Source: a virus
Strand: one strand, 5' to 3'
DNA length: 21,598 nucleotides
Virus record (IMG/VR): IMGVR_UViG_3300005664_000119
Location: 1 to 21,598 of that record
Position 1 is the stretch's first letter. Every line of letters begins with the position of its first letter. The notes below the pieces were generated by a model. It had not been told where the DNA came from. It saw only the letters and a program-made list of their open reading frames with translations, and made no database searches. Position numbers and translations under genes: made by a program. Shown here piece after piece: positions 2,995-21,598 of the stretch.

Positions 2995-2999
2995 TACAT

Positions 3000-3668: not shown

Positions 3669-3673
3669 AGAGA

Positions 3674-3681
3674 TACTTATG
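3674..3681 (-). promoter_or_regulatory. CATAAGTA variant box before the 222-aa gene
   Basis: CATAAGTA on the minus strand, five bases before the ATG at 3668. It differs from TATAAATA at two positions. The same variant recurs at 20642-20649 on the other strand. Confidence 0.45.
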
Positions 3682-3684
3682 TAT

Positions 3685-4362: not shown

Positions 4363-4399
4363 GTCTATATCTATTATCAACCTATTAGATAATCAATTT

Positions 4400-5590: not shown

Positions 5591-5593
5591 AAA

Positions 5594-6484
5594 TTAAGTT
5601 CCACAATCCGAGCTATATGTGGTGCCACCGCCCTGAGAATAACTGTAATTAGCACCACCAAATACAAATCCACCACCAGCCTTTTCAGTACTTTGGTCAG
5701 CATCTAGATATAAATGTGTTCCATCGACACTAGGAGGTGCAGAAGCAAAAACAACCATTGGATCATCTAATGCACAATTTGCATATATAGTATATTGTCC
5801 TAAACATGTGAATACAGATGTTACAAGTCCAGTAACTCCGGTTGTGTACCTTACCCCTCCATATGAAAATGTTGTAGAATTTAAAGTGGTAGTTAAGAAT
5901 GTATCAGTATAGAGATATATTCCAACTTGTAGTGCAGTGTCTTTAGATACAAAAATTGATAGGGGTGTTCCATCTGAACAAGAAATAGTACCTGTATACT
6001 CATCTCGACATTTTCCAACGTGTGTAGTAAATGAACTGGTTGCTACATAATCATATTGTTCATCGAGATATACAAAAGAGAATGAAGTGTGTTCAGTTGT
6101 TCGATCAGAATTTATGTATATTGCTGTTCCATTAGGAAATGGATTGGTGTAACTATAAGGGTAAACCTCTTCCGTGCCACCGTTATTACAATCCGAATAA
6201 ACTGTAATAGAATCAGCACATGTAATGGTTCCAGATTGTATTTCGCCATTAATATCAGTCGTAAACTGATATCCATAATTAAATGTCGAAGATACCAGAA
6301 GTGAAGTTAGACCTGCATCTGTGTATAATGGAGTTCCTTCGGCCAAAACTGCACCAATTGTCGTATAAACTGTTCTCGGGGTGAGATCATTACAAGAAAC
6401 TGTACCAATAAGTTCAGTACTATTGTATACAATAGTTGAAGTATCACTTATGGATAATATCAATGGAACGACTGGTAGAGACAT
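5594..6484 (-). CDS. Four-repeat, cysteine-framed adhesin/fibre-type protein
   Basis: A 296-aa protein made almost entirely of four degenerate repeats of about 68-70 residues. Each has a G-x-x-[L/I]-Y-x-[D/N] strand (for example GTPLYTDAGLTS and GIYLYTDTFLTT), an aromatic [V/Y/F]-x-[Y/F] strand, and a Cys at each end. The eight cysteines are C31/C89, C99/C159, C169/C227 and C237/C294. The gap from one repeat to the next is 10 residues every time. Such repeats occur in tail-fibre and surface proteins and suggest host contact; no enzyme motif is seen. The start is taken at ATG 6484, one base after the stop of the fibre gene, rather than an ATG at 6508 that would overlap it. There is no TAAATA box. 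The protein name is descriptive. Confidence 0.75.
   Translation of the reverse strand: MSLPVVPLILSISDTSTIVYNSTELIGTVSCNDLTPRTVYTTIGAVLAEGTPLYTDAGLTSLLVSSTFNYGYQFTTDINGEIQSGTITCADSITVYSDCNNGGTEEVYPYSYTNPFPNGTAIYINSDRTTEHTSFSFVYLDEQYDYVATSSFTTHVGKCRDEYTGTISCSDGTPLSIFVSKDTALQVGIYLYTDTFLTTTLNSTTFSYGGVRYTTGVTGLVTSVFTCLGQYTIYANCALDDPMVVFASAPPSVDGTHLYLDADQSTEKAGGGFVFGGANYSYSQGGGTTYSSDCGT
5603..6394 (-). repeat. Four degenerate protein repeats of about 69 aa
   Basis: Coding repeats corresponding to residues 31-294 of the 296-aa protein. Cysteine periods are 68, 70 and 68 for the first Cys and 70, 68 and 67 for the second. The DNA copies have diverged, so this is old duplication rather than recent slippage. 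Confidence 0.75.
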
Positions 6485-7214: not shown

Positions 7215-10200
7215 TCACAAGAGTAAAAGCAGTCCATTTTCTATAGAAATATAATTTCCTATCTCATCGGTTATGTATATGTCATCAGAAGTATTCGACG
7301 TTCCAAAATACAGGTTGATATATTTAGAAAATACACTACTCAACCCGTTCTGGAATGATAATAAACGGTTATCAGATAATTTTATAAAACCTCCTCCGAA
7401 TGTAGTTGGTAATGATTTATAATCTATGGTTTCTGGTAATGTTATAAAATATTGATTTCCGAAAATATCAGTATCCCAACTCCACACATCATCCGACCAC
7501 GCATTTGTGTACTGTACACTTGACAATGCACCACTATCATACAAACCATAAACAAACGATTTACCTCTCTCATTTGTTGTAGTATAAGGGTAGAAAGTTT
7601 GAATAGGAGTCTGTATATGCCCATCATCATACCCTAGCGATTTATTTACTACATACGAAGAATCTATATCATTTTTATAAAATGGTTTGTTGAAAAAATT
7701 ATCCGATTTGAAAAATTGTATATCATTGTTATTAGAAGATATCAAATGAGAAGAATTATGTGTTTCATATCTACCCATTCCTATTTTTTTAGGATTATAG
7801 AATGCTACCTCTTTATTGGTTAATAAGGCATCAGAAGATTCCTCCCATACAAAGTTGGTAGTAAACTGGTTTAGAATATTTTTCCAAGGTTCTGATGCAG
7901 TATTAGCCAATCCCGTTACTACAGGAACATATAAGGATTCTTCTCCATCAGTTATGTTATGTACATTAAACGTTTGATTGAACTCTGACCGAGCAAAATA
8001 ATTAACAAACACAGGCATTCCACTAACTTCTGTATTAAATGATATAGTGGATTTTTCGTATGTAGGTGTTGTTCCTATTTTGGTTGTATTACAGAAATAC
8101 TCACATCCACATATTCTAGATGAGTCACAATCCGATAGACATCTCGCAACCGGACGATTACAATTTACACTTTCACTATTAAGATAATTTAATATGTCAC
8201 TTTCAACACAGTTGTTTATGTCTATTTTATTCCATTGGAAAATGGGATTATATACTTGGAAAGTTAACGGTTCGTCCCACACGAAACAGGTAGAACCACA
8301 ATCACCAAACTTATATTCTAATATATTTTTATCACTAATAGTTATGTTGATAGGTGCTGGTTGAGTAACATGCAAGTATTCAAATACTATTCGAGACGAA
8401 TCTGGATATTTAGTAGCCCAATAATTAGATGCACCATTCAGTGGTATCTTCAATAAGAAGTTTATAGATGGTACGGTTCTCTCTATGTTTACGAATGATA
8501 TCGCAGAATCGGATGGACTTAGTGTTATAAAATCGCCACTAAGCTGTTTTGAATCCAAACCATTATATAATAATTTTTTTCTTATCTCTGTATAATTTTC
8601 TTTGTGGTTATATGTTAATATGTCTCCAAAATTTAGCACCATATCCGATACAATACCACTGTCCACCCATACACCGTCCGCATCCTGAGTAGCCTTGGTC
8701 CATTGTGGAATAAATGACATCTTTTCACAATCTATATCTTTCATAGTTCCTTCATCATATTTTTGATTTATTATGAACGGAGGAGCATCAAATGCACAGT
8801 TGTTTATTTTTGATCTATAATAGATGTATGTGGTTCCCTTTTCTAAAATAAAAGATGTTCCTAACTGCGTCTCCCATGTACCCGCACCCCAACCGATATC
8901 AGTTTCGATTATTTCTGGTATAAATCTTGCCGAATCTACACTGTTTGTATAATTATTCCCATCACTACCTACCCATGTTTTTTTATTAAATAGGTTAGGG
9001 TATACAGTATCTTTGACGATAAAATCGGGAGTTATGGAAAAATGCTCCAATGAACTCTGTGTATGTCCCATCGGAGAATAATGAATAGCTTGACATGAAC
9101 ATTTTTTCCATTTTTCAAAGAGGGGTTTGTTTAAATCATCCAATCTATTCTTATCAACTAGAGAAACACTATGATCTAGTTGTTTATATGGACAGGAGTC
9201 GTCGTGTGAAAATCCTCTAAATCCGTTAACTGTGTTTATATCTACCGTATTACCAGTCCATACAAATCTGAAAAAATCTCCAGACTCACATTTAAACGAA
9301 AGTCCTGCCTGTGCTCCACCACTAACAAATATCCAATCGGTTGAAAAATGTTGAACAATATCATCACATGAACATTGTGTTTTGTCAGATGCACCAAAAT
9401 ATTTTAGAGGTACAGCCTTTAGCCATGCGGCTTCTATTTCTGGCCCACATATACTTTGTTTTTTTATCAACATATCAGACGTGTCTAATGTTTCGGATGC
9501 AACCGCTCCAACAAAACATTCTCCAACATCTAAGGATGATAAATTTATAGAATCACCCGTGTCGTAATTGAAGAATAATTCTTCGGGGTCGTCATATCTC
9601 GTAATAGGAAAGAGTATATTATTAACTCCTGATTTAATAGGGAGTTGTGATTGTTGAAACTTATACAACCATGCTATCTGATAGTTGTCGTTGTAAATTG
9701 ATCGCGAGGCACCATTATCATATGTGATTATTATTTTATCTGCATTTTTGTACATATTACTTGCATTGCCATATGAACCTATATTTGTATTTTGTAAATT
9801 TATAGACTGAACAGTAGATATTAATGAAAAATCTGTCCAATATTTATCTACCACATCTTTTTGGTTATTAGTAAAGTCCTCCTCTGTTGGGAAGAATATC
9901 CTTGTTTTTTCGGCGGTATCATCAATATTTGGGCCGTTCCATTCTCCACCAAATGCCGAAAGTCCATAATTACAGTACGGAAATTTGAATATCTTTCCAT
10001 CCTTCATTATAGCTGACATTGTTGCATTGACCGTAATATAGTCAGTCTTTTGCAACCATGCACCATAAACATCGGAACTTCCGATATTAACAAATATAAT
10101 ATCAGATTCATACATATTCTCACCACCAGTTGCAAAAGACCAGTCGATATCATTTATATCAACATCTTTATACATACCATCCGGTATATCGTACACATTT

Positions 10201-11069
10201 TTACCACGAAACCAATAAAAATAATTGTCACCTGTTGTAAAAGTATGAGTATACTCCTGCCAATTTTCCATATAGAAACCACCCGATATGTAATTTATAT
10301 CAGTTCCTAAATATTTCCCATATGCTTTTCTAATAAGTTCATCGACTGTTTCATTGGTCGGGTTGCATATATAGTTTTGTTCTAACGGGTCTGCCAATGC
10401 AGATGTAGGAGGTAAAACCACACTATCACAGATATTGTTGAATATACAAGTAAGCGGGTCTATTCCATCAGACTTATCAAAGTAATCTGTTGTGTCATAT
10501 AACTCTTCGATCTCTATTTCAAAATCAGTTCTTATTGCAGAAAATTCTGGAGATTGTGATATTAATGGATTTTCGTTATTAAAACTACTGATACCATTTT
10601 TAGTGAACACTGATACCAATTTATTATATATCAATCGCTCCAATCCTTCTGACGAACCTATTAAATTATATTCTAATTTTTTATATTTAAGTTCATTTCT
10701 CTTTTTGGCATATAGAAGTGCTATCTCCTTCAATTTTTTTGCATATGCAGGAATTACTAATTTGAGGTCTGTTTCCGAAGTTAAATCGGAATTTTTATAT
10801 CTCTCAAATGCCTCATCATTTTCAAAAATGACAGATAGTTTTTTTAGTAATAATACATAATCATCTTTTATCTTGGTAGATGCAGTCTGAGTTTTTGTAT
10901 CAAGATCAGTATAAAAATTATTTAAATAATTTTTATACTGATCCTGTGCATCATTAAATGCAATGCCGATGTGTCTTCTCTGCCATTCTGCGAAAGACAA
11001 CGGAACAGGATTATATCCGTTTGAAATCTTTTCTGGTTTTGAGATCGTATTTAAAGATATAGAAGGCAT
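7215..11069 (-). CDS. Very large baseplate-type protein in the gp7 position
   Basis: A 1284-aa protein encoded directly after gp6, the place of the wedge initiator gp7 (about 1030 aa) in T4. Residues 1-160 are Lys/Glu-rich and helical, including LSFAEWQRRHIGI and a probable coiled coil (about 40-150). The rest is beta-rich with many aromatic residues. Three similar stretches begin at about 262, 583 and 724, each a [S/G]-W/G-G start followed by a strand of the type GDNYFYWFRG, GDFFRFVWTG or GTTYIYYRSK. A Cys cluster lies at C970, C977, C981, C987, C989 and C993, and CSC pairs occur earlier. No signal peptide or membrane segment is present. The gp7 role is inferred from gene order and size; direct sequence similarity to T4 gp7 is not visible. 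AGTAAATA precedes the start by six bases. Confidence 0.65.
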   Translation of the reverse strand: MPSISLNTISKPEKISNGYNPVPLSFAEWQRRHIGIAFNDAQDQYKNYLNNFYTDLDTKTQTASTKIKDDYVLLLKKLSVIFENDEAFERYKNSDLTSETDLKLVIPAYAKKLKEIALLYAKKRNELKYKKLEYNLIGSSEGLERLIYNKLVSVFTKNGISSFNNENPLISQSPEFSAIRTDFEIEIEELYDTTDYFDKSDGIDPLTCIFNNICDSVVLPPTSALADPLEQNYICNPTNETVDELIRKAYGKYLGTDINYISGGFYMENWQEYTHTFTTGDNYFYWFRGKNVYDIPDGMYKDVDINDIDWSFATGGENMYESDIIFVNIGSSDVYGAWLQKTDYITVNATMSAIMKDGKIFKFPYCNYGLSAFGGEWNGPNIDDTAEKTRIFFPTEEDFTNNQKDVVDKYWTDFSLISTVQSINLQNTNIGSYGNASNMYKNADKIIITYDNGASRSIYNDNYQIAWLYKFQQSQLPIKSGVNNILFPITRYDDPEELFFNYDTGDSINLSSLDVGECFVGAVASETLDTSDMLIKKQSICGPEIEAAWLKAVPLKYFGASDKTQCSCDDIVQHFSTDWIFVSGGAQAGLSFKCESGDFFRFVWTGNTVDINTVNGFRGFSHDDSCPYKQLDHSVSLVDKNRLDDLNKPLFEKWKKCSCQAIHYSPMGHTQSSLEHFSITPDFIVKDTVYPNLFNKKTWVGSDGNNYTNSVDSARFIPEIIETDIGWGAGTWETQLGTSFILEKGTTYIYYRSKINNCAFDAPPFIINQKYDEGTMKDIDCEKMSFIPQWTKATQDADGVWVDSGIVSDMVLNFGDILTYNHKENYTEIRKKLLYNGLDSKQLSGDFITLSPSDSAISFVNIERTVPSINFLLKIPLNGASNYWATKYPDSSRIVFEYLHVTQPAPINITISDKNILEYKFGDCGSTCFVWDEPLTFQVYNPIFQWNKIDINNCVESDILNYLNSESVNCNRPVARCLSDCDSSRICGCEYFCNTTKIGTTPTYEKSTISFNTEVSGMPVFVNYFARSEFNQTFNVHNITDGEESLYVPVVTGLANTASEPWKNILNQFTTNFVWEESSDALLTNKEVAFYNPKKIGMGRYETHNSSHLISSNNNDIQFFKSDNFFNKPFYKNDIDSSYVVNKSLGYDDGHIQTPIQTFYPYTTTNERGKSFVYGLYDSGALSSVQYTNAWSDDVWSWDTDIFGNQYFITLPETIDYKSLPTTFGGGFIKLSDNRLLSFQNGLSSVFSKYINLYFGTSNTSDDIYITDEIGNYISIENGLLLLL

Positions 11070-11075
11070 TCAAAC

Positions 11076-11083
11076 TATTTACT
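11076..11083 (-). promoter_or_regulatory. AGTAAATA box before the 1284-aa gene
   Basis: AGTAAATA on the minus strand, six bases before the ATG at 11069. It contains the TAA stop of gp6. Confidence 0.55.
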
Positions 11084-12833
11084 GGATAGTGATTCTATCA
11101 GTAAAAATTTTATTGTTGAGATGAGGGAATTGAAAATCTTGTAGCAAACGAACTGAACCGATTTCTTCAACACTCTGATCAAAATATACAGAGTTCCATG
11201 CCACCATCTTCAAGCCTTCCACCGAAATACCAGTTGTGGTATTTTTAGTGTATAGTTTTTCAACACCATCTAGTTGTAAAATATCTGTATATAATTTTTG
11301 AATATTAATAGATTGACCTAGTGTATTATTTTCTTTCTTGAAAAACTCTACGATGAGGGATTCTATACTCTTTTTTATAGAAGATTCGTTTATCCTCGAA
11401 CCAGATGACCGTTCTACAACCAATTCACTATTATCTATATCATATGGATTTATCGTAGAAGACTCTGGTAAACATATGTCGAATAATATATAAACAGGAT
11501 CGACAGGAATAACATCACATGTTAACACCTTCTCTTCATCCATACTTTTTACTATTGCTGTTTTTTGTGATGGTGATAGATAACCTAATGAATCGCCTAT
11601 TATTTTCGGAACTATGAATATGTATACATTGTTAAAATTACATGCATCTGAAAATCTCAATTGATTGAATAATGCGCGACTTTCAAATTGTGGTTGGGTT
11701 AGTCCAAGATCATAGAAATATTTGAAATAAGAATCTTGATATTCGGAATTATTTTTAACCTTAACATCATGTATTATATTTGAGAAATTAGACTTCACAA
11801 AAGTCTCGAAAGATTTTGCAGTGGTCAGACTTAACTGCGATCTAAATGATCCAATAGCACTGGATTTTATAGAATTTACAGACTCTGGCTCTGTGTAATA
11901 TGTACTTGAAAATTTATTATTTATGGCTATTTTAGTTAAAGAAGAACTGGAAAGATATACTTCGGACGACACATCTGCTAATATCTCGTTCAATCTATCG
12001 GTGTTAAAAACATTCACCTTTTTATTAATGAGTGTTGATGCACCTATTTCCCCTGATTTACCTAATGATCGAAGATAGTATATTGCAACCTCATCAGAAC
12101 TTGATAATTTTTTTCCATTAATATCATCTCCAAATTTTATTTCATATCTCTTATTTTCGTTAAACCTTATTTCATATACCTTATCTAGATAACTGTTGAG
12201 AAACAACGACTGAGAACGCTTCCATTTTTCCCATACATTATTCGACTTAACATATACATCAATATTAAAAGAGTCTAATATATCAGAATCTTCTACGGTT
12301 AAAATTATAGTTTCATTAGTATTCCCCGCAGGAAATACTATAGGGAATTCTGTATAATCTCCTTGATAGAGAGTTGATAAATCTTCTATCCCTGTTATTT
12401 CTTCGGAACCACTAGTTGATTTCGTAAATGGTATATCTTCGGAAAAACTATACGTTATCCCTGCAACATTCACAGATGAATATCTGGGAATGGTATACAC
12501 TCCGACATCCATATCTCCGTTAGCGGTCAGGGTAAAATTGACACTGGCAGTCTGATGTCCAACCGGATTATATCCTAATTCTTTTACTATCTTGTTGATG
12601 TTTTCATAAATTGTCGTTTGTGAAAATTGTCCATTGACAGAGTTTTGATTTAGATAATATAAAAGCAACGAAAAACTCATCGAAATAGCATCGTTTATAC
12701 CAGCAAGATTAGAACCTTCAAAGTTCTGATCCGTGAATATCCCTGTTTGGTTTAAGCGTTCGCGTATTTTCTCCTTAATGGTAAGACCATCAAAGGCTAC
12801 ATAGGAATTTTTTGCTACAGGAAAATCGTTCAT
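11079..12833 (-). CDS. gp6: Baseplate wedge protein gp6 (gpJ-like)
   Basis: A 584-aa baseplate wedge subunit of the gp6/Baseplate_J class. In T4, gp6 dimers join neighbouring wedges and form the ring that expands on sheath contraction. The N-terminal region is the most characteristic: AFDGLTIKEKIRERLNQTG, then FTDQNFEGSNLAGI, LLYYLNQNSVN, YENINKIVKELGYNP and GHQTASVNF, which follow the pattern of T4-like gp6 proteins. Charged beta regions and a domain around 250-420 follow, and the C-terminus includes a helical segment near 480-520. It is slightly shorter than T4 gp6 (660 aa). The start has AGTAAATA five bases upstream, overlapping the stop of the 172-aa gene. gp25 is encoded divergently nearby, consistent with the wedge core. 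Confidence 0.92.
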   Translation of the reverse strand: MNDFPVAKNSYVAFDGLTIKEKIRERLNQTGIFTDQNFEGSNLAGINDAISMSFSLLLYYLNQNSVNGQFSQTTIYENINKIVKELGYNPVGHQTASVNFTLTANGDMDVGVYTIPRYSSVNVAGITYSFSEDIPFTKSTSGSEEITGIEDLSTLYQGDYTEFPIVFPAGNTNETIILTVEDSDILDSFNIDVYVKSNNVWEKWKRSQSLFLNSYLDKVYEIRFNENKRYEIKFGDDINGKKLSSSDEVAIYYLRSLGKSGEIGASTLINKKVNVFNTDRLNEILADVSSEVYLSSSSLTKIAINNKFSSTYYTEPESVNSIKSSAIGSFRSQLSLTTAKSFETFVKSNFSNIIHDVKVKNNSEYQDSYFKYFYDLGLTQPQFESRALFNQLRFSDACNFNNVYIFIVPKIIGDSLGYLSPSQKTAIVKSMDEEKVLTCDVIPVDPVYILFDICLPESSTINPYDIDNSELVVERSSGSRINESSIKKSIESLIVEFFKKENNTLGQSINIQKLYTDILQLDGVEKLYTKNTTTGISVEGLKMVAWNSVYFDQSVEEIGSVRLLQDFQFPHLNNKIFTDRITIQ

Positions 12834-12838
12834 CTAAC

Positions 12839-12846
12839 TATTTACT
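12839..12846 (-). promoter_or_regulatory. AGTAAATA box before gp6
   Basis: AGTAAATA on the minus strand, five bases before the ATG at 12833. It overlaps the TAG stop of the 172-aa gene. Confidence 0.55.
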
Positions 12847-13363
12847 AGTTATTTCCGCCGTTGTTTACTGTGCCTTTAGGTTGCTTACCTTTATTATATT
12901 CGTTTTCAAGCGTTGCACCTTTTTCGTGTTTAATTTTAGCAACAAACTGATCATCAATCGGATGTTGCATAATGTCTCCAGCTTCGGTTACGGTTTTCAG
13001 AATAGAACAAGGAACCGTAATTATTCCAGTGTATAGACCCGGAACCTTGTGATTAACTAGATCGGCTTCTTCTGGGTGACTAGATGGTGCCTCAGAAAGA
13101 AATCCCGAAGTTGATCTGAGAGTTTTAAGTGCAGACACAAACATTACATGTTTATCTGCTGCCATTTTATCTAATTGGGCCAAATATGTAGCACCTTTCT
13201 TAACTGTTAGTTCTCGACGAATATCTTGGTTTTTAAGCAACTCAGGATCAAGAACTACGAAACTTCCTGGATGTATTTTAGAAGAATCATAGTTTTCCAA
13301 AACTGTTTGGAAAAGTGATTCTGGATTATATTTTTCAAGAAGTTCTTTAATTTTGTCGTTCAT
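12845..13363 (-). CDS. Unrecognised 172-aa protein upstream of gp6
   Basis: A 172-aa protein, first gene of the leftward block. It begins with an amphipathic helix (MNDKIKELLEKYNPESLFQ). A mixed alpha/beta body follows with HPGSFVVLDPELL, a Lys/Ala-rich helical part (TYLAQLDKMAADKH) and VPGLYTGIITVPC. It ends in a Gly/Asn-rich tail (GTVNNGGNN) that is probably disordered. I know no family with this pattern. There is no signal peptide or membrane segment. It sits 36 bp from the divergent gp25 gene and 11 bp before gp6, so a small baseplate or assembly role is plausible but unproved. TATAAATA precedes its start by six bases. Confidence 0.7.
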   Translation of the reverse strand: MNDKIKELLEKYNPESLFQTVLENYDSSKIHPGSFVVLDPELLKNQDIRRELTVKKGATYLAQLDKMAADKHVMFVSALKTLRSTSGFLSEAPSSHPEEADLVNHKVPGLYTGIITVPCSILKTVTEAGDIMQHPIDDQFVAKIKHEKGATLENEYNKGKQPKGTVNNGGNN

Positions 13364-13369
13364 AATATG

Positions 13370-13377
13370 TATTTATA
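13370..13377 (-). promoter_or_regulatory. TATAAATA box at the divergent centre, leftward
   Basis: An exact TATAAATA on the minus strand, six bases before the ATG at 13363. With the rightward CATAAATA at 13387-13394 it forms a divergent promoter-like pair only nine bases apart, in the sole intergenic gap where transcription changes direction. Confidence 0.65.
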
Positions 13378-13386
13378 TATTTACCC

Positions 13387-13394
13387 CATAAATA
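13387..13394 (+). promoter_or_regulatory. CATAAATA box at the divergent centre, rightward
   Basis: CATAAATA five bases before the ATG at 13400. It supports that ATG, not the in-frame ATG at 13367, as the gp25 start: the box would otherwise lie inside the gene. Confidence 0.65.
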
Positions 13395-13399
13395 ATTAC

Positions 13400-13870
13400 A
13401 TGATAACTATTTCAAATCTTTCCAGTAAAAAAACAGGAAAGACTTATACATATTCTGATTTAGATTTGAATTTTGAAGAAAAACAAGTATCATCGAATAC
13501 TAGAAACAATAATATTGTTGCGGGAAATGATCTAGTAGTTGCAACTGATATTGAGGCTATAAAAAATTCGATAAGAAATATACTTTTTCAGAAAAGACAT
13601 CTTTCCCCCACAGTCGGCATCAATTTGCGGAAATACATAGGTCAACCAATCTCCGAAATGCGAGCACAGTCGATAGGAGAAGAAATCGAACGAGCAATCG
13701 TTCTATACGAACCACGGGTTAAAGTTAATAAAATAATAGTGCGATACAATATTGACCAAATGACATACTTTATTGAGATGCGGTTAGATTTGGTCAATTT
13801 CTCTGAATCGTTGACGATACTAAATGCAGCATTTACAAATACTGGTGAGTTCACATTTATAAATAGGTAA
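13400..13870 (+). CDS. gp25: Baseplate wedge protein gp25 (GPW/gp25 family)
   Basis: A 156-aa gp25-like protein (GPW_gp25, also called lysozyme-like domain), a small conserved subunit holding the wedge core of contractile tails together with gp6 and gp7. Visible family features are IEAIKNSIRNILFQKRHLSP, the segment GINLRKYIGQPIS, the helix IGEEIERAIVLYEPRVKV with its EPR triplet (the hallmark of the wedge core bundle), and a beta hairpin after it. Length suits T4 gp25 (132 aa) with a short N-terminal extension carrying Lys/Thr-rich GKTYTYSDLDLNF. The start is ATG 13400; an upstream in-frame ATG at 13367 would add 11 unlikely residues and overrun the promoter-like box. Two bases separate it from the next gene. 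Confidence 0.92.
   Translation: MITISNLSSKKTGKTYTYSDLDLNFEEKQVSSNTRNNNIVAGNDLVVATDIEAIKNSIRNILFQKRHLSPTVGINLRKYIGQPISEMRAQSIGEEIERAIVLYEPRVKVNKIIVRYNIDQMTYFIEMRLDLVNFSESLTILNAAFTNTGEFTFINR
13858..13865 (+). promoter_or_regulatory. TATAAATA box before the 625-aa gene
   Basis: An exact TATAAATA seven bases before the ATG at 13873, lying within the last codons of gp25. Confidence 0.55.
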
Positions 13871-13872
13871 CA

Positions 13873-15750
13873 ATGATCACCGTCTCTCAATTATCTGGTA
13901 TTAAAAATGTAACAACTTTTACATTTCAGATTTCGCCTTCCGCAGAAGCTCCCTTGATAAATTGGGGTGATGGGACATTTTCACACACCAATACAGCATC
14001 GCATATTTACTCCAGCATTGGTCTTTATAATATATATGGTGGAGGATGTTCTACAACTTCCGCATTTCAATTAAGTGTTTATAATGGGGCATATTTTACG
14101 GATAAGATATTAGTAACGAGTCCTGCAACATCATCCATCGTATCAAATATCCACACATTTACAATAAATCTTTCCTCAAGGAACGAAATGAATACCGTTG
14201 TATTATATTCCAGTGGAAGCGATTCGGTGCCATATTCAGATGTCAGAGGTTTCTGGACACATCTTCAACCTGAGTGGTCATTTACGTTTGATGATGAAAA
14301 TATATCTGAATTAGAAATAACTGGATCGCCTGTTTATTCTGGAACATCTGTTCTGGGATATTCAGCAACATCCTCTGTAAACTATTCCGATGATATGCCA
14401 GGACATAGAAATCTATGGTTCACTGTCAAACAAACCGATAAAAATGTTCCCATAAATTCCCGTGTATTTTCTACAGTTCAACACTCTGTATGTGCCAGTA
14501 CGCCTGATAAACTAATCATAACAGCAGATGGCATAAACGATATAAATCGAATACAGTGGGCAGGTATTGATATTCCTTATGTTATAAGTGTAGGTAGTTC
14601 ACAAAATTCATCCACTAACATACTTCATTATGTCTCCGGTAATTTAACAGATATCAAATTTTTATCAAATTGTTTCGGCGTTGATACCTCATCATTTGTC
14701 TATCCGACTTGTGCAATGAATTTATTAGATTCAAATTGTAAGAAAACTGGTGGATATATATTAACTAATTTCAATCTCCCCGCATCATCATTAGCAGTGC
14801 AAACGATAACAAATAATATAGATTCCTGTAATCCTGAATATGATAAAATCGAATATACACGAACTCGTAACACACCGAGAAGCATAATTCTATCAGCGAC
14901 TGGTGTATTTAATTATAATGGTATTGATTATACACTATCTGGTACCTCCTCACCTTTTGATATTGTCGCGCTAGAGAATCGTCATGAATTTTTCAGAAAA
15001 GGGGAAGATACGACTATCTATGATGTGTTGAAACAATCATTGCCATTTGATATAGAACAATATAGCAATTTCGACACATATTTAGATACGATTGCGGGGT
15101 CGGGTGATTCTTTTGGAAAGCTGTATGATAAAATACATAATTTTTCTGATGATCATTCTGATATCGATATATGTACAGTTGATGCATTAATAGATAAATC
15201 AATTATGTTGGATGATCCTATGGACGATTTCGGATTAGAATTGCCAGAAGAACTTAGACGCATATTCAATTTTTCAACAATACCTTTACAAAAACTTATC
15301 GGATCACGATGCGTATGCAATACTAATTTTGTCGGATGTATCGGTTGTAACAATTCTAATATATGTACTATATGTAAATTCGACAAAAGAAGTAATTTAG
15401 GAAATAAAATAACACTAACCGACTATATAACCGCTGGAGTAACCGTTCTGTACAAAGAAGACGGAGGAACGATATTCAATTTTCACACAGTATCTCCTCA
15501 GATCACCAATGTATTCATGTTGCAGACATTATCAGCAGAACCGTTTTTAACCAGAGGAATAGACAACTATTGCTTTTATACATGGGACAAATCTCCTCAA
15601 AACAATCCGGTAGAAAGCGTCATCAATTACAAAGATTCTCGAAATGCACTATCTCCATCACTATCATCCAATGATGATTGGTATAGTGATAACGGTGTAA
15701 TCGAGGAAATGTTTAACTATATACTAACAAAAAATCTCATAAATAGTTAA
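13873..15750 (+). CDS. PKD-domain baseplate-type protein with a Cys cluster
   Basis: A 625-aa protein following gp25. Residues 1-75 look like a PKD domain (Ig-like): W31-G-D-G34, H44-I-Y and G50-LYNI are its signature strands. Another beta domain, with FWTHLQPEWSFTF near 115-130, follows. Residues about 370-470 are different and helical: FDTYLDTIAGSGDSFGKLYD, then DIDICTVDALID and an ELPEELRRIF helix. This recalls the helical part of tail wedge proteins of the P2 gpI/T4 gp7 kind, but I rate that similarity as weak. A Cys cluster follows at C480, C482, C489, C492, C498 and C501 (CxC-x6-CxxC-x5-CxxC), which could bind a metal. The gene is adjacent to gp25 and ends with the stop immediately before the next ATG. 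Likely a baseplate component. Confidence 0.65.
   Translation: MITVSQLSGIKNVTTFTFQISPSAEAPLINWGDGTFSHTNTASHIYSSIGLYNIYGGGCSTTSAFQLSVYNGAYFTDKILVTSPATSSIVSNIHTFTINLSSRNEMNTVVLYSSGSDSVPYSDVRGFWTHLQPEWSFTFDDENISELEITGSPVYSGTSVLGYSATSSVNYSDDMPGHRNLWFTVKQTDKNVPINSRVFSTVQHSVCASTPDKLIITADGINDINRIQWAGIDIPYVISVGSSQNSSTNILHYVSGNLTDIKFLSNCFGVDTSSFVYPTCAMNLLDSNCKKTGGYILTNFNLPASSLAVQTITNNIDSCNPEYDKIEYTRTRNTPRSIILSATGVFNYNGIDYTLSGTSSPFDIVALENRHEFFRKGEDTTIYDVLKQSLPFDIEQYSNFDTYLDTIAGSGDSFGKLYDKIHNFSDDHSDIDICTVDALIDKSIMLDDPMDDFGLELPEELRRIFNFSTIPLQKLIGSRCVCNTNFVGCIGCNNSNICTICKFDKRSNLGNKITLTDYITAGVTVLYKEDGGTIFNFHTVSPQITNVFMLQTLSAEPFLTRGIDNYCFYTWDKSPQNNPVESVINYKDSRNALSPSLSSNDDWYSDNGVIEEMFNYILTKNLINS
15738..15745 (+). 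promoter_or_regulatory. CATAAATA box before the eight-repeat gene
   Basis: CATAAATA five bases before the ATG at 15751, inside the final codons of the 625-aa gene. Confidence 0.55.
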
Positions 15751-18700
15751 ATGCTGTCATCAACATTTGATATTTTCTCTAAAGTTATTCTGGAGAAAAA
15801 CTATTCATATTCAATTCCCCAAGATAAAGAATTAATTCTTTATGATTTCTATATGTTGGTGCATCTTAATGCATTAAAGAAAGAAGGAAAGTTTCAGCCA
15901 GGAGATAAGAAGGATCATTTCGGACAAGTATCGCAGACAACTACACATTCGATGGGATTGGACCACTCGACAGAGTTTTCGTTTGAAGAAATTAAAAAAC
16001 AATTAATAGGCTATCTTCAACCAGAGTTACTGGAAGCAAGTTTGTTTTCTATATCATGTGAGCTACGACATGTTTTTGATAATAATTCACCATTAAATAT
16101 AACGGCAACGCTAGGCCCGCAGATTGCCGAGTTTTATACTAATTTAAAATATAATTATGAAAAATTGAAGAAAGTATCCCAGATAAAACGGGATGGGGAT
16201 AGTACTATCAAAGATTTAATTAATAAACGTCGCCGTAAATTTAATAAAAAATATAATATTAAAATGAAGGAGGGGGGCGCATCACGTAATACCGACTACA
16301 GAATATCTTATAAAGCACTCAAACAGACGATAGCTAAACTTAATATATCAGAAGTAGAGGTCGCAGAAATTGGTCGAAAATCGTTTTTATCCCTGCAATG
16401 GGGCGCTTCTTATGGTGGAAAGCCATGGGCAAGTATATGTGACGCATACATCAAACTATATTATGCAAAGCGTGAAGTAGACCAGATTATCTACATAGAT
16501 AATATGTATCACCAGCAACATAATACCGATACGGTTTTTAATAAACTCCAGTCATATTATAAATCAAATGCGGGTTATCGTTGGGTATTAAATGCATTAA
16601 ACTTTAAGGCAGATGTTAAAGATAATTGGGATAGAATAAAAAAAATAAAAGAAGTTGCAACAATAAAAATAAAAGATGCCTCTGGAAATGTAACAAAAGA
16701 AGTGCCTGCACTTAGAAGTATAGATCGGATGTATATTGAAATGCTGAAAGCCTCTGGAGATAGAACATGGGAACAATATTATAAAGTTGAGAAGGCTCCT
16801 CCAAAAGAAGAGGTGAAACCGAAAAAAGAACCAAAAGAAATATTCCACGATTTAGGGAAATCTTTCCAATTTCCACAGCACATGATGCCTGGAAAAGTAC
16901 AATATCAAGATACATCTTCCAACATTGAGATGAATCGTCCACATTGGAATAAGATGGCAAAGGAAGGGTTTAAAAAATTTGGTAAAATATACAATAGCAG
17001 CGGGAACGAATTGATAGCTGTGGGACCAGGAGTAAATACACCACCACATTTAATGCACTTGTTAGACATAGATTCTTTTGATCTGTTTATGCGTCTTGAT
17101 TCAGGATCGTGGAGCGGTGGCAATGAGGGGTCATCCCCCTCACACGATTATGCAATCCCTAAAGATATTTGGATAAAAAAATTCGGAAAACTTCCTAAAG
17201 AATTTGATTCTTCTGATAAAACAAAATATACTCCTAATTCCACATATGTTTCCAAGTTTATAGCGGCGGCAAAACAAACCGATTCTGACATATATAAAAA
17301 AGGATTTATATTTATTGGTAATGGTGTTTCGGGTGAAGGGTTGGTAAAAGAGATAGGAGTATCAAGTATTAACAATTGTAGTGGATATCTAGATGATGAA
17401 CTTAGTATGGTCGAAAAAACGGGCTGTCCTAATTTGTACGGAAATGCGCCTAGTAATAAATATTATTTAAAAAAATCGCATTGGGAAGATATCTTTGGAC
17501 CATTTGAAGAAATAACAGGCTATAAAGAGAAAGCTAATAAGTTTGAAGCCGTTAAAAAATATTTTATAAAGGTTGCGAAAGAATTTAAAGATGAATCGTC
17601 GTTTGAGGAAGCGACTGCTGGCTCTCCAGATTTTTGGGTTTCATTGGGAAACTCTATACCTAAACATCTGGCAGACCCAGAAGATATACAAAATGGTGCT
17701 ACAATCACATTATCTAATATTATTGGAGGAGATGATCTCTCTCTTATAAAAAAGATATCGAAAAATATTGGACGCATCGAACATTCTAATAGTGGTTATT
17801 GTATAAGTGATTGGGGTGGTGATGGCATATTAGGAGCAAAAGAAGGTTATCAATATGTCATGAAAAAAACATTGTGGGAAAGTTTATTTGGAAAATTTAA
17901 ACCATCCGAAGACATCGAAGATGATAAGTTACCGAAAAATGATAAAATAACTCCTGAAATTATAAAGAAGTATAGAGACAATGATAATGTTGGTTATACC
18001 GTGGCAACTCATAAGTTTGCTATCCCATCTCTTCTTAATGCTCATCACTTAGGATTTGGACAGAACGTTGCAGAGGATATACATGCCGGGGTATTTCCCA
18101 AGAGCCTATTCGATAAAGAGGCGTTCGGTAAAATATATAATAGTGGATCATGGGAAACCCTCAACAATGAGGATGATGTATCGTTCGCATATCGTGTTTG
18201 GATGAAAGATAAATATTGGCAAGAGCTATTCGGTGATAAGAAAAAGACTAGAGAAAGTAAGACCAAATCAAAGGAATTTACCGAAAAGGAAATATCAGAT
18301 TTCCATGCCTTATTAGAATATGGTGAGAGTCATTACGGGGGAGTAGGAACGAATTGGCCGTATGTAGGAACGATAAGAGATGTCAAACAATTGTACGAGT
18401 CTGGTAAATTTAAAAAAGATATTTTTGTCAAACCTGCACTAGTATCATCTCCCATGATGTATACAATGAAAAAAGGCGGTGATTTATGGATTAAACTCAG
18501 ATCGTTTGATAATGTGACTGATCTAGATCAACCCGTTATCATGTGGATAGACATCTGGAAAAAATATTTCGGTGAGCATAAACCCGTTGTTGCAGAGAAG
18601 AAAAATGTTATTACTCCAGAAGTAATAAAAAAATATCAAAATCTTGCAAAAAGTGGGCATAAACAGTTAGCTTCGATTCCTAACGTAAAAGAATATATAG

Positions 18701-19575
18701 TATTATATGTTGGAACCGCTGTTGATGTTCTCGGTGCAATAAAAGACGGCATATTTACACAAGAATTAGTAGAAGATTATATGTTCGGGACTTGGATGAC
18801 GGGCGATAATTGGTCGGGAGTATCAAGCATGAAAAAACTTGAGGTCGATTTAAGTCCTGGGACTACTATATGGATGAAAGATTATGCATGGACCGAATTG
18901 TTCGGTCCTATCAAAAATTTAATAGACTCTACAACTTCGGACATATCTCCTGGCATTAAACGCAAATTTAAAAAGTTGGCAAAAATTGAAAATGCACTCC
19001 CGTATCTCAAGGACAGTAAAACAAAAGACGGGGAACAATTAATTTATATCGGAAAGGGTAGCCTTCGAGATAGTGGATTTCCTATGAAGTCTGTGAAACC
19101 GAAAGATATATATGGTGGTTCTTCGGGGGCTTCTGAATTTTCAAACAATATGCTTGGAACATCCACATCATACCATTATTTTATAACTGCAAAGAAATGG
19201 AAGGAAATATTTGACGAGGAACCACCTACAACAACTAAAGAAGACGATTCTAAATCTAATATCAAGGTGTCGGGCGAAGTGTTGTTACAATTTAGTAACT
19301 TGGCAAGAGAAGGATATAAAAAAGGACACTACAAAAATCAACAGGGTGATAACCTGATTTATATCGGAAAAGGACCGATAGGAGAGAAGGGGCTACCAAA
19401 TACAAACATCTACTATAACATTTATGCAATCGCATCCGATACTAAAACGGTTGAGGGTTATTATATTTTATCGGGTCACTGGTCGGGTGATAATAGAAAA
19501 AAAGACTATTTTATAACTGCCACCGATTGGACCGCACTGTTCGGTATTATACCTCCCAACAATCTCAACATTTAA
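15751..19575 (+). CDS. 1274-aa protein: leader, unknown N-domain, eight WxxxFG repeats
   Basis: I do not recognise this protein. Its first 15 residues (MLSSTFDIFSKVILE) share the leader of the next four genes. Residues about 20-300 form an alpha-rich domain including GGKPWASICDAY (222-233) and IDNMYHQQHNTDTVFNK (249-265), which looks conserved in character. A Lys/Pro/Glu linker (about 349-363) leads to eight degenerate repeats from about 395 to 1265. Each ends in W-x-x-x-F-[G/D]: W474, W578, W709, W823, W936, W1047, W1150 and W1260. Repeats often carry a LIYIGKG- or FIGNG-type strand and an SG-x-W-[S/T]-GDN-like loop. No catalytic site, signal peptide or membrane helix is seen. An internal virion protein or a large adhesive or structural filament are both possible; the leader favours the former. 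Confidence 0.75.
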   Translation: MLSSTFDIFSKVILEKNYSYSIPQDKELILYDFYMLVHLNALKKEGKFQPGDKKDHFGQVSQTTTHSMGLDHSTEFSFEEIKKQLIGYLQPELLEASLFSISCELRHVFDNNSPLNITATLGPQIAEFYTNLKYNYEKLKKVSQIKRDGDSTIKDLINKRRRKFNKKYNIKMKEGGASRNTDYRISYKALKQTIAKLNISEVEVAEIGRKSFLSLQWGASYGGKPWASICDAYIKLYYAKREVDQIIYIDNMYHQQHNTDTVFNKLQSYYKSNAGYRWVLNALNFKADVKDNWDRIKKIKEVATIKIKDASGNVTKEVPALRSIDRMYIEMLKASGDRTWEQYYKVEKAPPKEEVKPKKEPKEIFHDLGKSFQFPQHMMPGKVQYQDTSSNIEMNRPHWNKMAKEGFKKFGKIYNSSGNELIAVGPGVNTPPHLMHLLDIDSFDLFMRLDSGSWSGGNEGSSPSHDYAIPKDIWIKKFGKLPKEFDSSDKTKYTPNSTYVSKFIAAAKQTDSDIYKKGFIFIGNGVSGEGLVKEIGVSSINNCSGYLDDELSMVEKTGCPNLYGNAPSNKYYLKKSHWEDIFGPFEEITGYKEKANKFEAVKKYFIKVAKEFKDESSFEEATAGSPDFWVSLGNSIPKHLADPEDIQNGATITLSNIIGGDDLSLIKKISKNIGRIEHSNSGYCISDWGGDGILGAKEGYQYVMKKTLWESLFGKFKPSEDIEDDKLPKNDKITPEIIKKYRDNDNVGYTVATHKFAIPSLLNAHHLGFGQNVAEDIHAGVFPKSLFDKEAFGKIYNSGSWETLNNEDDVSFAYRVWMKDKYWQELFGDKKKTRESKTKSKEFTEKEISDFHALLEYGESHYGGVGTNWPYVGTIRDVKQLYESGKFKKDIFVKPALVSSPMMYTMKKGGDLWIKLRSFDNVTDLDQPVIMWIDIWKKYFGEHKPVVAEKKNVITPEVIKKYQNLAKSGHKQLASIPNVKEYIVLYVGTAVDVLGAIKDGIFTQELVEDYMFGTWMTGDNWSGVSSMKKLEVDLSPGTTIWMKDYAWTELFGPIKNLIDSTTSDISPGIKRKFKKLAKIENALPYLKDSKTKDGEQLIYIGKGSLRDSGFPMKSVKPKDIYGGSSGASEFSNNMLGTSTSYHYFITAKKWKEIFDEEPPTTTKEDDSKSNIKVSGEVLLQFSNLAREGYKKGHYKNQQGDNLIYIGKGPIGEKGLPNTNIYYNIYAIASDTKTVEGYYILSGHWSGDNRKKDYFITATDWTALFGIIPPNNLNI
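16933..19545 (+). repeat. Eight degenerate protein repeats, about 103-131 aa each
   Basis: Coding repeats spanning residues 395-1265. The last conserved element is W-x3-F-G (WIKKFG, WEDIFG, WESLFG, WQELFG, WKKYFG, WTELFG, WKEIFD, WTALFG). Distances between successive Trp are 104, 131, 114, 113, 111, 103 and 110 residues. Several repeats start with a helix of the type EVIKKYQNLAKSG. Copies share little DNA identity, so the array is old. Confidence 0.8.
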
Positions 19576-19578
19576 AAG

Positions 19579-19586
19579 TGTAAATA
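19579..19586 (+). promoter_or_regulatory. TGTAAATA box before the 106-aa gene
   Basis: TGTAAATA six bases before the ATG at 19593, in the 17-bp gap after the 1274-aa gene. Confidence 0.5.
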
Positions 19587-19592
19587 TTAAAT

Positions 19593-19913
19593 ATGACAAC
19601 AGAATTTGATACATTTATAAATAATATATTACAGGAATACTTTATTGCCGAACCTGACTTTCAAAATAAAGTTAATAATGCAATCTCAGGAACCAAGGTT
19701 AAATTGGAAAAATTCAATCTTGTAACTCAAGTAACCTTGTCGAGAACGGATGCACCAAAGGTTTTAAAAGCATTGAAAAATTCAAAGGTGATTTGTTTCT
19801 ATGAATATCCTGTCAATGATCCTGCACGTCTTTTATTATTTAAAAATGTCCAAGATGTGAAACGACTTGTCCGTGAATATCCCGGTGCTCTTGATGGTTT
19901 TGCTAAATATTAA
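19593..19913 (+). CDS. Unrecognised 106-aa protein with the shared leader
   Basis: A 106-aa protein starting MTTEFDTFINNILQE, close to the leader of its neighbours: F-D-x-F-x-x-x-I-[L/V], then L13-Q14-E15 as a [L/I/V]-x-E triplet. After the leader, a small alpha/beta body contains LVTQVTLSRTDAPKVLKALK, a beta strand with ICFYEYPVNDPA, and a C-terminal helix (VQDVKRLVREYPGAL). No signal peptide, Cys or membrane segment. The family is unknown. If the leader is a head-targeting peptide, the mature protein would have about 91 residues. It lies 17 bp after the eight-repeat gene and 5 bp before the next leader-bearing gene. Confidence 0.7.
   Translation: MTTEFDTFINNILQEYFIAEPDFQNKVNNAISGTKVKLEKFNLVTQVTLSRTDAPKVLKALKNSKVICFYEYPVNDPARLLLFKNVQDVKRLVREYPGALDGFAKY
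19902..19909 (+). promoter_or_regulatory. GCTAAATA box before the 240-aa gene
   Basis: GCTAAATA nine bases before the ATG at 19919, the longest spacing seen, inside the end of the 106-aa gene. It is a weaker match than the others. Confidence 0.35.
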
Positions 19914-19918
19914 TACAT

Positions 19919-20641
19919 ATGACTCCCTTGTTTGATAAATTTATATCCCATATTGTTGTTCAAGAAAGTGTGACATTTTCCGTTGCAGATAGTACAACAA
20001 CTGTTGCAACCCTTGGAGACTTGGCATGGATTCTTAATAATCAATTTCACCAGTTCATGTTGAAAAACTTGAACATACCTCTTGAAAAATATCCTGACGA
20101 ACTTCGGGGTGAAAAGATCGTGGTTGATGGTGATAGTGACTATTTCGGCCCCGAAGGAGTCCTGAGCATATATACAGATAAGGTGCCCGAAGAACTCACA
20201 ACTAAATTGATTCAAATGATTTCTTACTATGTCGGGGAAAACAATGCCGAAGTTCTTAATAAACCATATGTGGAAACTTCGGGTAGTCGTAAAGGAGATG
20301 TATGGAGGCTTCGTGTAAAGGTAAATCCAGTTACGGATAATCCTCCTGAAATGAACCTCTCTAATCTAAATGCAAGAACATTGATGTGTGATATTCTCAA
20401 CTATTCTGATGATGTGATGACGGAATATCCATCCATTCAGGCAAATGAATTATTAATGAAGATTGAACAAATCGAAGACAATGATTATCAACTTGATAAA
20501 GCCGTTCGCCCCGAAACACAGGATGGTAATCACTATCAGGGAGGTCTTTCCAAAGAACGTATAAAACAGGTACTCGATAATCTTAAAGCTATTTGCGAAT
20601 GGGCACTGGAACGAGATTATACATATATTCAACTTAGTTGA
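19919..20641 (+). CDS. Unrecognised 240-aa protein with the shared leader
   Basis: A 240-aa protein starting MTPLFDKFISHIVVQES. Its leader matches the 106-aa and 1274-aa proteins at F-D-x-F and ends in V14-Q15-E16, followed by Ser. The body includes LGDLAWILNNQFHQF, an acidic-aromatic stretch DGDSDYFGPEGVLSIY, DVWRLRVKVNPVTD, and a C-terminal helix KERIKQVLDNLKAICEWALE. No enzyme motif that I can name, and no membrane segment or signal peptide. Function unknown. It ends with TGA and lies 5 bp from the gene before and 14 bp from the gene after, within a compact rightward operon of leader-bearing genes. Confidence 0.7.
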   Translation: MTPLFDKFISHIVVQESVTFSVADSTTTVATLGDLAWILNNQFHQFMLKNLNIPLEKYPDELRGEKIVVDGDSDYFGPEGVLSIYTDKVPEELTTKLIQMISYYVGENNAEVLNKPYVETSGSRKGDVWRLRVKVNPVTDNPPEMNLSNLNARTLMCDILNYSDDVMTEYPSIQANELLMKIEQIEDNDYQLDKAVRPETQDGNHYQGGLSKERIKQVLDNLKAICEWALERDYTYIQLS

Positions 20642-20649
20642 CATAAGTA
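20642..20649 (+). promoter_or_regulatory. CATAAGTA variant box before the 283-aa gene
   Basis: CATAAGTA six bases before the ATG at 20656. The same variant stands before the 222-aa gene on the other strand. Confidence 0.45.
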
Positions 20650-20655
20650 AAATAT

Positions 20656-21507
20656 ATGACATTCCAAGAGCTTTATAAATTTCTCATAAAAGAAGATGAT
20701 GGGATCGAGAATATCGAACTCAAGGGCGATTGGGAATCTTCTAAACTCCATAAATATGATCGTGCATCTGTGGGTATTCTCAAAAATAAGAATTCCTTGG
20801 AACGCATAAAAAATAAATGGTCAAAGCTCGAACATCCTATTGACATCTATATTGCCAAAGGACCAGAGATATCCAAATTCTATGAACTTGGTCGTGTTGA
20901 TTCCTATTTTGTTCGCGATAAGATGAAACTTGATATTCCGTACAATGAAGATAACATCACCCTAATATTTACAAACAATATGGGAGATGAAAAGGTACCT
21001 CTCACCCCTTGGATTATGGCACACAGATTCGGCCATGCATTTTCCCGTGATACAGTTACAAGGAATGGTTCAGATTATTTCTGGAGGGAGATAAAAAAAA
21101 CAGTGAATAAGCTATTCGACGAAATACTTGGTATTGCATATGGTCAAAAACTAAGCATCAGCGATCCTTACTCTAGAACAAATCAAAAGATAAAAAGAGA
21201 ACTCGGCCATGCACTCGGAACATTTAAATCTGCAAGAGACAAAAATATAAGAAATGATGATGAATTCATTAATGAGTTAATTGCACAATATATTATAAAC
21301 GGAAAGATTACATTGAATACCAAACTTCCGAATATTCTTCCTATAAAAACTGCATGGGGCCGTGTAGACGGTTATCCTTTAAGAAGAAATCTATCTCAGG
21401 ATCAAAAGGACGAATTGGAATATACATTTGAACTATATGAGAATATGCTCAACAATGATATTGATACAATATTCACATCCAATATCGGACACATATTTGT
21501 AATGTAA
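20656..21507 (+). CDS. Protease-like 283-aa protein with HRxGH in place of HExxH
   Basis: A 283-aa protein with the leader MTFQELYKFLIKE (I11-K12-E13 triplet). The central segment TPWIMAHRFGHAF places H123-R124-F125-G126-H127 in a helix, like the zinc-binding HExxH of metallopeptidases but with Arg for the catalytic Glu. About 80 residues later E207 in FINELIAQYI sits where some such families have a third ligand. So this is either a metallopeptidase-like fold that binds metal without standard catalysis, or an unrelated His-rich helix. Strands around ITLIFTNNMGD precede the motif. No signal peptide or transmembrane segment. The enzyme-like reading is tentative; the motif itself is directly visible. 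It lies in the operon of leader-bearing genes. Confidence 0.7.
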   Translation: MTFQELYKFLIKEDDGIENIELKGDWESSKLHKYDRASVGILKNKNSLERIKNKWSKLEHPIDIYIAKGPEISKFYELGRVDSYFVRDKMKLDIPYNEDNITLIFTNNMGDEKVPLTPWIMAHRFGHAFSRDTVTRNGSDYFWREIKKTVNKLFDEILGIAYGQKLSISDPYSRTNQKIKRELGHALGTFKSARDKNIRNDDEFINELIAQYIINGKITLNTKLPNILPIKTAWGRVDGYPLRRNLSQDQKDELEYTFELYENMLNNDIDTIFTSNIGHIFVM

Positions 21508-21511
21508 AATA
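21504..21511 (+). promoter_or_regulatory. Imperfect GTAAAATA box before the right-edge gene
   Basis: GTAAAATA two bases before the ATG at 21514, with one extra A compared with the local consensus. It overlaps the end of the 283-aa gene. Confidence 0.25.
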
Positions 21512-21513
21512 CT

Positions 21514-21598
21514 ATGAAATTTAATGAACTATATAATAAACTAAACAAGTTAGATATTATCAAGGAAAATCCTGATACGATAATATCGAGAAGTTCTC
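21514..21598 (+). CDS. 5' part of a further leader-bearing gene, cut by right edge
   Basis: ATG at 21514 opens a frame that runs 28 codons to the window end. It encodes a leader beginning MKFNELYNKLNKLDIIKE, clearly like MTFQELYKFLIKE of the gene before it (F-x-E-L-Y, then I-K-E at 16-18). The rest of the protein is missing. It starts 6 bp after the preceding stop, in the same operon. Too short to name a function. Confidence 0.65.
   Translation, partial: MKFNELYNKLNKLDIIKENPDTIISRSS

Follow-up and report, generated by a model that had tools for sequence, protein, structure and literature searches.

The virus fragment IMGVR_UViG_3300005664_000119, analysed over its whole length of 21,598 bases (hereafter the window), comes from the tail-gene region of a myovirus of the T4 type and contains five consecutive plus-strand genes whose products begin with a short leader resembling the capsid-targeting sequence (CTS) of T4 internal proteins (IPs). 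A gp6-like baseplate protein is encoded on the minus strand; the plus strand then carries a gp25-like baseplate wedge gene that heads the run (13367..13870; PF04965, 1.4e-7; phrog_261, 4.9e-15), a gene for a 625-aa protein and the leader genes, with 0-17 nt between consecutive genes. The leaders are N-terminal, 13-18 residues long and of the common form F-x-x-[F/L/Y] ... [I/L/V]-x-E. With the residues following the Glu placed behind a slash, they are MLSSTFDIFSKVILE/KNY in the 1274-aa protein (15751..15795), MTTEFDTFINNILQE/YFI in the 106-aa protein (19593..19637), MTPLFDKFISHIVVQE/SVT in the 240-aa protein (19919..19966), MTFQELYKFLIKE/DDG in the 283-aa protein (20656..20694) and MKFNELYNKLNKLDIIKE/NPD in a protein cut by the record end (21514..21567), and their closing triplets are ILE, LQE, VQE, IKE and IKE in gene order. 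The five bodies are mutually unlike, the best body-to-body match covering 16 residues (E 0.12). A first-pass annotation had reported both the shared leader and the otherwise unlike proteins, and both observations held for all five genes. It had also described the leader as amphipathic, which is clear for some leaders but not for all five (helical-moment p of 0.03, 0.03, 0.35, 0.06 and 0.71), and had stated that no minus-strand gene in the window carries it, a statement that probably needs a slight correction. A protein of 172 aa encoded on the minus strand (12845..13363) has homologues that start with a leader in the related contigs G001 (MNMSKFLELYESVMDE/VNL) and G004 (MDMSKFTSLYESILE/SVD), and probably carries one itself, ..SLFQTVLE/NYD at residues 16-23, after a short extension. 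In the related contig G002, minus-strand genes are clearly leader-bearing (38203-39333 and 24470-24769).

Related contigs (G001-G004 and others) came from homology searches with three window proteins (1274-aa, 240-aa and gp6-like), the 66.6-kb contig G002 being the closest large relative. Pfam and phrog profile searches gave no confident family for any window body. The body of the 1274-aa protein (15796..19575, plus strand, as are the other bodies) has a conserved N-terminal domain at about residues 16-340, with homologues in G002, in G001 (within a fusion) and in LR756511 (two tandem genes). These homologues vary before the Glu and are conserved after it, the stretch directly after the leader Glu being KNYSYxIPxDKELxLYDFYM. 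Pfam gave no match for this protein and the match to phrog_20946 was weak; a structure model of its N-terminal domain (pLDDT 56) was set aside, as its best PDB match (E 0.24, probability 0.08) was meaningless. The C-terminal two thirds (window 16800-19575) contain several weakly alike segments that include IGKG or VGPG and end in ..W..[IL]FG, while repeats at the DNA level are weak. The body of the 106-aa protein (19638..19913) has weak profile matches only, and its G002 homologue, MTKLFNEYVSNILE/KCWKGYKQKG, has a leader of the same type but an insertion after the Glu. No family was matched by the body of the 240-aa protein (19967..20641) or by that of the 283-aa protein (20695..21507), which is 60% identical to a 288-aa protein of G002; a search for more viral-contig relatives of these two proteins returned already known contigs only. 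An HRFGHA motif is invariant between the 283-aa and 288-aa proteins, and on a reading of the sequence the 283-aa body is possibly a degenerate metallopeptidase. The structure model of this protein, built on an alignment of two rows, was unusable (pLDDT 40).

Judged from these alignments, the leader is a separable module with the Glu as its last residue. In G001 the 240-aa homologue has MGFKEFYQLYYE in place of the window leader MTPLFDKFISHIVVQE, yet the two bodies share 65% identity and their alignment starts at the Glu (query residue 16). Identity in the 1274-aa family is 41% in the leader and 86% in the next 22 residues, and the corresponding values are 39 and 74 in an 89-aa family and 50 and 76 in the DUF6267 family. 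Conversely, four consecutive unlike proteins of G002 have near-identical leaders (MKFEELYNTLLLE, MKFEELYKIYTLLE, MNFQELYNLIHE and MNFQELYDILINE), of the type also found on the 283-aa protein. Moreover, leaders occur inside fused proteins. A 1061-aa fusion of G001 (9678-12863) starts MRFKDHFLLTE/NPD and has an internal leader, ..MEESFKDHFLQLISE/KNYSYN, before the homologue of the 1274-aa protein, and contig L084 encodes two fused proteins (44-1789 and 1776-5834) with internal leaders (..MKNFSDFYNERLLLE/FND in L084). These arrangements suggest that the fused cargo of G001 and L084 may be polyproteins cut by the head protease; alternatively, the internal leaders may reflect internal translation starts. 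Small stretches with a Cys pair also lie directly after the leader, behind different leaders: CWKGYKQKGMKKKGKRIVPNC, CTGPTLPQLSDNPRYVFSRC and CTKVTGQQxSSRxDKKYMRC (G002 45533-45925 and 24470-24769, G003 12902-13201, G012 2663-2929 and G028 27069-27338).

The leader is also enriched at N-termini. A strict pattern based on the window leaders, M.{1,5}F..[FLY].{2,8}[ILV].{1,2}E within the first 24 residues, matched 4/15 complete window proteins, with 0.06 expected from internal positions, a test that is circular for the window itself but not for the relatives. With internal positions and shuffled N-termini both serving as background, it was enriched in G001 (7/15, P 7e-12), G002 (8/59, 3e-10), G004 (5/16, 3e-7) and G003 (4/48, 3e-5), and remained so after removal of homologues of window proteins (G001 5/9, P 2.6e-9; G002 6/48, 9e-8; G004 4/9, P 8.5e-7; G003 4/40, P 1.6e-5). 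The 595-kb LR756511 (W01) showed a modest excess of the strict pattern (13 vs 5 expected) and a clear one of the F..[FLYW] start (82 vs 34), with a slightly different leader dialect (MKTFAEWIVEKHPLDE, MRSFRQYITE and MKTFMQWLDDKRLTE). Among 47 leaders, which were set by eye and are not a random sample, the length is 9-18 residues, and 41/47 have Leu or Ile at P3.

The layout of the leader agrees with what is known for T4. According to passages of PMC9026906 on the IPIII tag MKTYQEFIAE, residues 4 and 7 act mainly in targeting and residues 8 and 10 in processing, gp21 cuts after L/I-x-E, and Asp at residue 10 blocks processing while still allowing targeting. The targeting pair (Tyr4 and Phe7; i, i+3) has its counterpart in the F-x-x-[F/L/Y] of 5/5 window leaders, the processing triplet [L/I]-x-E recurs at the leader ends, and unrelated proteins carry a short N-terminal propeptide (13-18 residues, within the range of about 10-20). 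Among the T4 IPs, whose CTS (IPI, IPII and IPIII) likewise combine an N-terminal position, 10-20 residues, a hydrophobic or aromatic i/i+3 pair and an [L/I]-x-E end on unrelated injected proteins, IPI with its 19 residues is nearest in layout. Leaders here are often 12-16 residues long with a longer gap between pair and triplet.

Relatives of the window encode the corresponding head machinery. A gp21-family protease (PF03420, over cut-off) was found in 12/34 related records, including G002, G003 and LR756511, and its GELxH and G[LV]S[ST] motifs align with those of T4 gp21. G002 encodes nine leader proteins and this protease together, and in both G002 and G003 the protease lies near the gp23-like capsid protein and a candidate gp22-like scaffold, the latter assigned from where it lies and from its sequence alone. 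The first-pass annotation had proposed looking for such a protease and for the same triplet in head proteins. The triplet was found in the relatives' capsid proteins, where alignment places the sites at LLQE/APL (G002), VIQE/TNY (G003) and LQE/AGN (L068), compared with LTE/AEI in T4. The protease search succeeded in G002, G003 and LR756511 but gave no PF03420 match in the window's own 21.6-kb record, which is uninformative because no head genes were recognised among the genes of this fragment. LR756511.1 has a second, diverged gp21-family protease at 242240-243133 (PF03420, E 3.5e-9) besides that at 525953-526621. In L068 (1041-2801), L012 and L014, the protease open reading frame (ORF) has an in-frame interruption of about 400 residues right after GELEHP, starting near a Cys and ending ..FWTGN/S, which on a reading of the sequence looks like an intein.

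Promoter-like sequences of the T4 late type precede leader genes. An exact copy of the T4 late-promoter octamer, TATAAATA, lies 15 nt upstream of the 625-aa gene (13858..13865, plus strand), and similar plus-strand octamers precede the ATG of the 1274-aa gene by 13 nt (CATAAATA, 15738..15745) and that of the 106-aa gene by 14 nt (TGTAAATA, 19579..19586). Counting octamers with at most one mismatch ahead of an ATG, late promoters precede 3/4 leader genes in the window (P 1.4e-3), 5/9 in G002 (P 3e-5) and 4/6 in G004 (P 7e-5); the excess is also significant in G003 but not for the leader genes of G001 (P 0.10). In the window and G002, the octamers mostly lie 13-14 nt before the ATG of leader and structural genes, and they are nearly absent from the right-hand region of G002, which is without structural genes.

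Published virion proteomes of cyanophages connect this kind of leader with virion content. For S-CREM2, 52 virion proteins are given in Table 3 of PMC10665884. A pattern drawn from the literature (an aromatic i/i+3 pair followed by [LIVM]-x-E within 20 residues) matched 4/28 non-structural virion proteins, 0/24 structural ones and 0/155 undetected ORFs (P 4.5e-4), a P value to be read in the light of the S-CREM2 N-termini having been inspected before the patterns were written, of four patterns having been tried and of a background of six-frame ORFs rather than annotated genes. The four proteins are the SAM lyase (MKDFDSFLEE), the kinase (VKRFDAFLTE), the cytidylyltransferase (MKNFSSFLTE) and ORF15 (MNFSEFNE). 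A relaxed pattern also matched ORFs 13 and 136, together with 4/155 undetected ORFs, and the window-derived pattern gave P 0.06. In S-SCSM1, the virion NMNAT starts MKSFLQFLKE/A, and the two phages pooled gave P 6e-4. The passages on S-CREM2 and S-SCSM1 virions in PMC10665884 and PMC9602691 do not mention a targeting sequence. The virion-borne ORF12 of S-CREM2 (OR473000.1 7704-10313) carries the annotation of a Cas9-like nuclease but gave no Pfam match at E 0.01. It contains an internal leader-like stretch, LRFASFMAE/AA, at residues 17-25, and its true start may therefore lie downstream of the annotated one.

In the relatives, enzymatic domains were recognised behind the leader. One leader protein, in G002, matches a T7 gp0.7-type kinase profile (phrog_15752, E 1.7e-16) over residues 16-237 behind a leader of 14 residues, others contain a GNAT acetyltransferase domain (over cut-off, also in G002) or DUF6267 (from residue 23) plus a cytidylyltransferase, and LR756511 has a C39-type peptidase directly after the leader MLEFRQWFE; an LVHEWAH metallopeptidase-like protein has weak support. 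In the kinase, GNAT, DUF6267 and C39 peptidase cases, the cargo body begins right after the leader. Among cultured phages, Rhizobium phage RHph_I1_18 has a kinase starting LKSFSEHIAE/SL next to a protein starting MISFKSHLNE/SM, and Methylophilales phage Melnitz-3 has the leaders MQGFKTFLSE/A, LINFSKYITE/D and MKKFSEIIE/A. 'FYHVC' proteins of G001 and G004 were considered as ADP-ribosyltransferases and dropped, as neither Pfam nor PDB sequence searches supported this.

Taken together, the IPIII determinants, the protease and capsid triplet of the relatives and the link to S-CREM2 virions support the capsid-targeting interpretation of the first-pass annotation. We consider it highly probable that the leader is a T4-type CTS on proteins that are packaged in the head, processed by a gp21-type protease and injected, the steps from core binding and cleavage to encapsidation and injection being inferred for this phage. 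Late in infection, the tagged proteins would be made from T4-type late promoters, and the F-x-x-[F/L/Y] face of the leader would bind the prohead core and draw the protein into the prohead. The activated gp21-family protease would then cut after [I/L/V]-x-E and free the mature protein, which would stay in the DNA-filled head and reach the next host together with the genome. On this reading, the window genes and their leader-bearing counterparts in relatives may form an interchangeable repertoire of injected proteins for host takeover or anti-defence.

Several observations weigh against this interpretation. The window is without head genes, leaving protease and targeting unmatched within this genome, and its cargo genes adjoin baseplate genes rather than head genes. 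In pairs of the 283-aa, 83-aa and ADP-ribosyltransferase-like (ART-like) proteins, the leader is no more divergent than the residues that follow. The strict pattern matched 2/207 T4 proteins, which is no enrichment, and neither is an IP; the window leader is accordingly a dialect and not an identical sequence, and T4 was compared through its mapped residues instead. S-SCSM1 alone gave no significant result (1/20 unassigned virion proteins vs 3/228 undetected, P 0.29). Finally, the residue after the Glu (P1') is Lys, Tyr, Ser, Asp or Asn in the five window leaders, only one of which, with Ser, has a small residue as at the T4 Glu/Ala site, while the capsid sites of relatives have Ala or Thr. 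The first-pass annotation had raised this caution, which is only partly answered by the 47 leaders (Ser 12, Lys 8, Asn 6, Ala 6, Asp 3, others; Ser/Ala/Gly 19/47) and stands for the Lys, Asp and Asn cases when set against the capsid Ala or Thr. Cutting before Lys, Asp or Asn is thus uncertain. A small P1' is a preference and not a defining requirement, so its absence lowers the claim of cleavage but not that of targeting.

The bulky or charged P1' residues would also fit a leader that serves as a packaging tag only and is not removed, with [I/L/V]-x-E as a by-product of the helix, and the Asp10 variant of IPIII demonstrates that targeting can proceed where processing is blocked. Against this, the junction retains its Glu even where other leader residues differ, P3 is strongly restricted to Leu or Ile, and a full leader kept inside fusions is easier explained by cutting; we regard retention of the leader as unlikely. 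Less likely still, and in our view quite improbable, is loading into the tail tube or baseplate rather than the head, in the manner of the N-terminal signals of extracellular contractile injection systems. It would account for the gp25 and gp6 baseplate genes that neighbour the leader genes in both the window and G002. However, the S-CREM2 leader is found on enzymes and on none of the structural virion proteins, tail ones included, the motif fits the T4 head determinants and head-protease triplet, bodies of 1000-1274 residues are large for the tube lumen, and the relatives encode T4-type head genes, unlike headless contractile particles. A localisation signal for another phage compartment, such as a phage nucleus or a membrane, was considered since jumbo phages can have such compartments; no support for it was found, and the T4-type gp21/gp23 head of the relatives, leaders without Sec signal features and the link to virion content in S-CREM2 make it very improbable. 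An N-terminal composition bias, start-codon artefact or ordinary amphipathic N-terminus, which could be suspected from a loose version of the pattern that matches about 5% of T4 and LR756511 proteins, is refuted by the strict-pattern enrichment in four contigs, the leader swaps at the Glu and the internal copies in fusions.

The closest known systems include the T4 IPs, from which the leader proteins differ in a P1' that is not restricted to small residues, in cargo of up to 1274 aa (the T4 IPs being small injected proteins), in the many cargo proteins per genome and in fusions with internal copies in relatives. T4 Alt, the virion ADP-ribosyltransferase, is likewise packaged in the head, acts in host takeover and has a short propeptide at its N-terminus, but its leader is without the F-x-x-F pair, and no ADP-ribosyltransferase was confirmed among the window proteins. 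In phiKZ and SPN3US, many head proteins are ejected and a gp21-family protease (gp175/gp245) removes propeptides after Glu; there, however, the propeptides are mostly 111-254 residues long as given in a passage of PMC10052503, whereas the leaders here, at 9-18 residues, are short and T4-like. The virion kinase, NMNAT/cytidylyltransferase and SAM lyase of S-CREM2 and S-SCSM1, detected by virion mass spectrometry according to parts of PMC10665884 and PMC9602691, have the same kind of leader, and their cargo families differ from those of the window.

The CTS as a means for T4-like phages to package varied proteins has already been suggested (in a passage of PMC9026906), and no description of it in cyanophages or in these uncultured phages was seen among open-access papers naming a 'capsid targeting sequence', which were judged mainly from titles and abstracts. 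A leader of this kind is known from T4; the less expected features are how numerous and large the cargo proteins are, which enzymes they include, and that some leaders are internal. It is conceivable, though somewhat short of probable, that one modular code (an aromatic pair plus [L/I]-x-E) operates in T4-type phages ranging from cyanophages to huge uncultured ones and arms virions with injected kinase, acetyltransferase, SAM lyase, nucleotidyltransferase and peptidases, the fused cargo with internal leaders being polyproteins cut by the head protease in the capsid. If the capsid-targeting interpretation is correct, a signature of about 15 residues would list the injected proteins of a T4-type phage from its genome alone, uncultured phages included, and several 'hypothetical proteins' would become candidate first-minutes effectors or anti-defence proteins. 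It would also give a sequence-based reason to regard enzymes detected in virion preparations of cyanophages as packaged and not as contaminants, and would provide natural tagged cargo much larger than the T4 internal proteins.

Two further observations concern the tail region. Many relatives encode a gp6-adjacent protein (e.g. L055:8829-9434, minus strand) that starts with F-x-x-L-[YF]-E (MNKKFVKLYESALQRF..GGFLAGDVV) and had no match among cultured phages. In the window, two enzyme-like genes lie on the minus strand at 3685-5590; on a reading of their sequences, the start of one resembles a sulfotransferase (IIFVHIPKTGGSSIEQSLG) and the other resembles a glycosyltransferase with the DxD-type motif FLDCDI.

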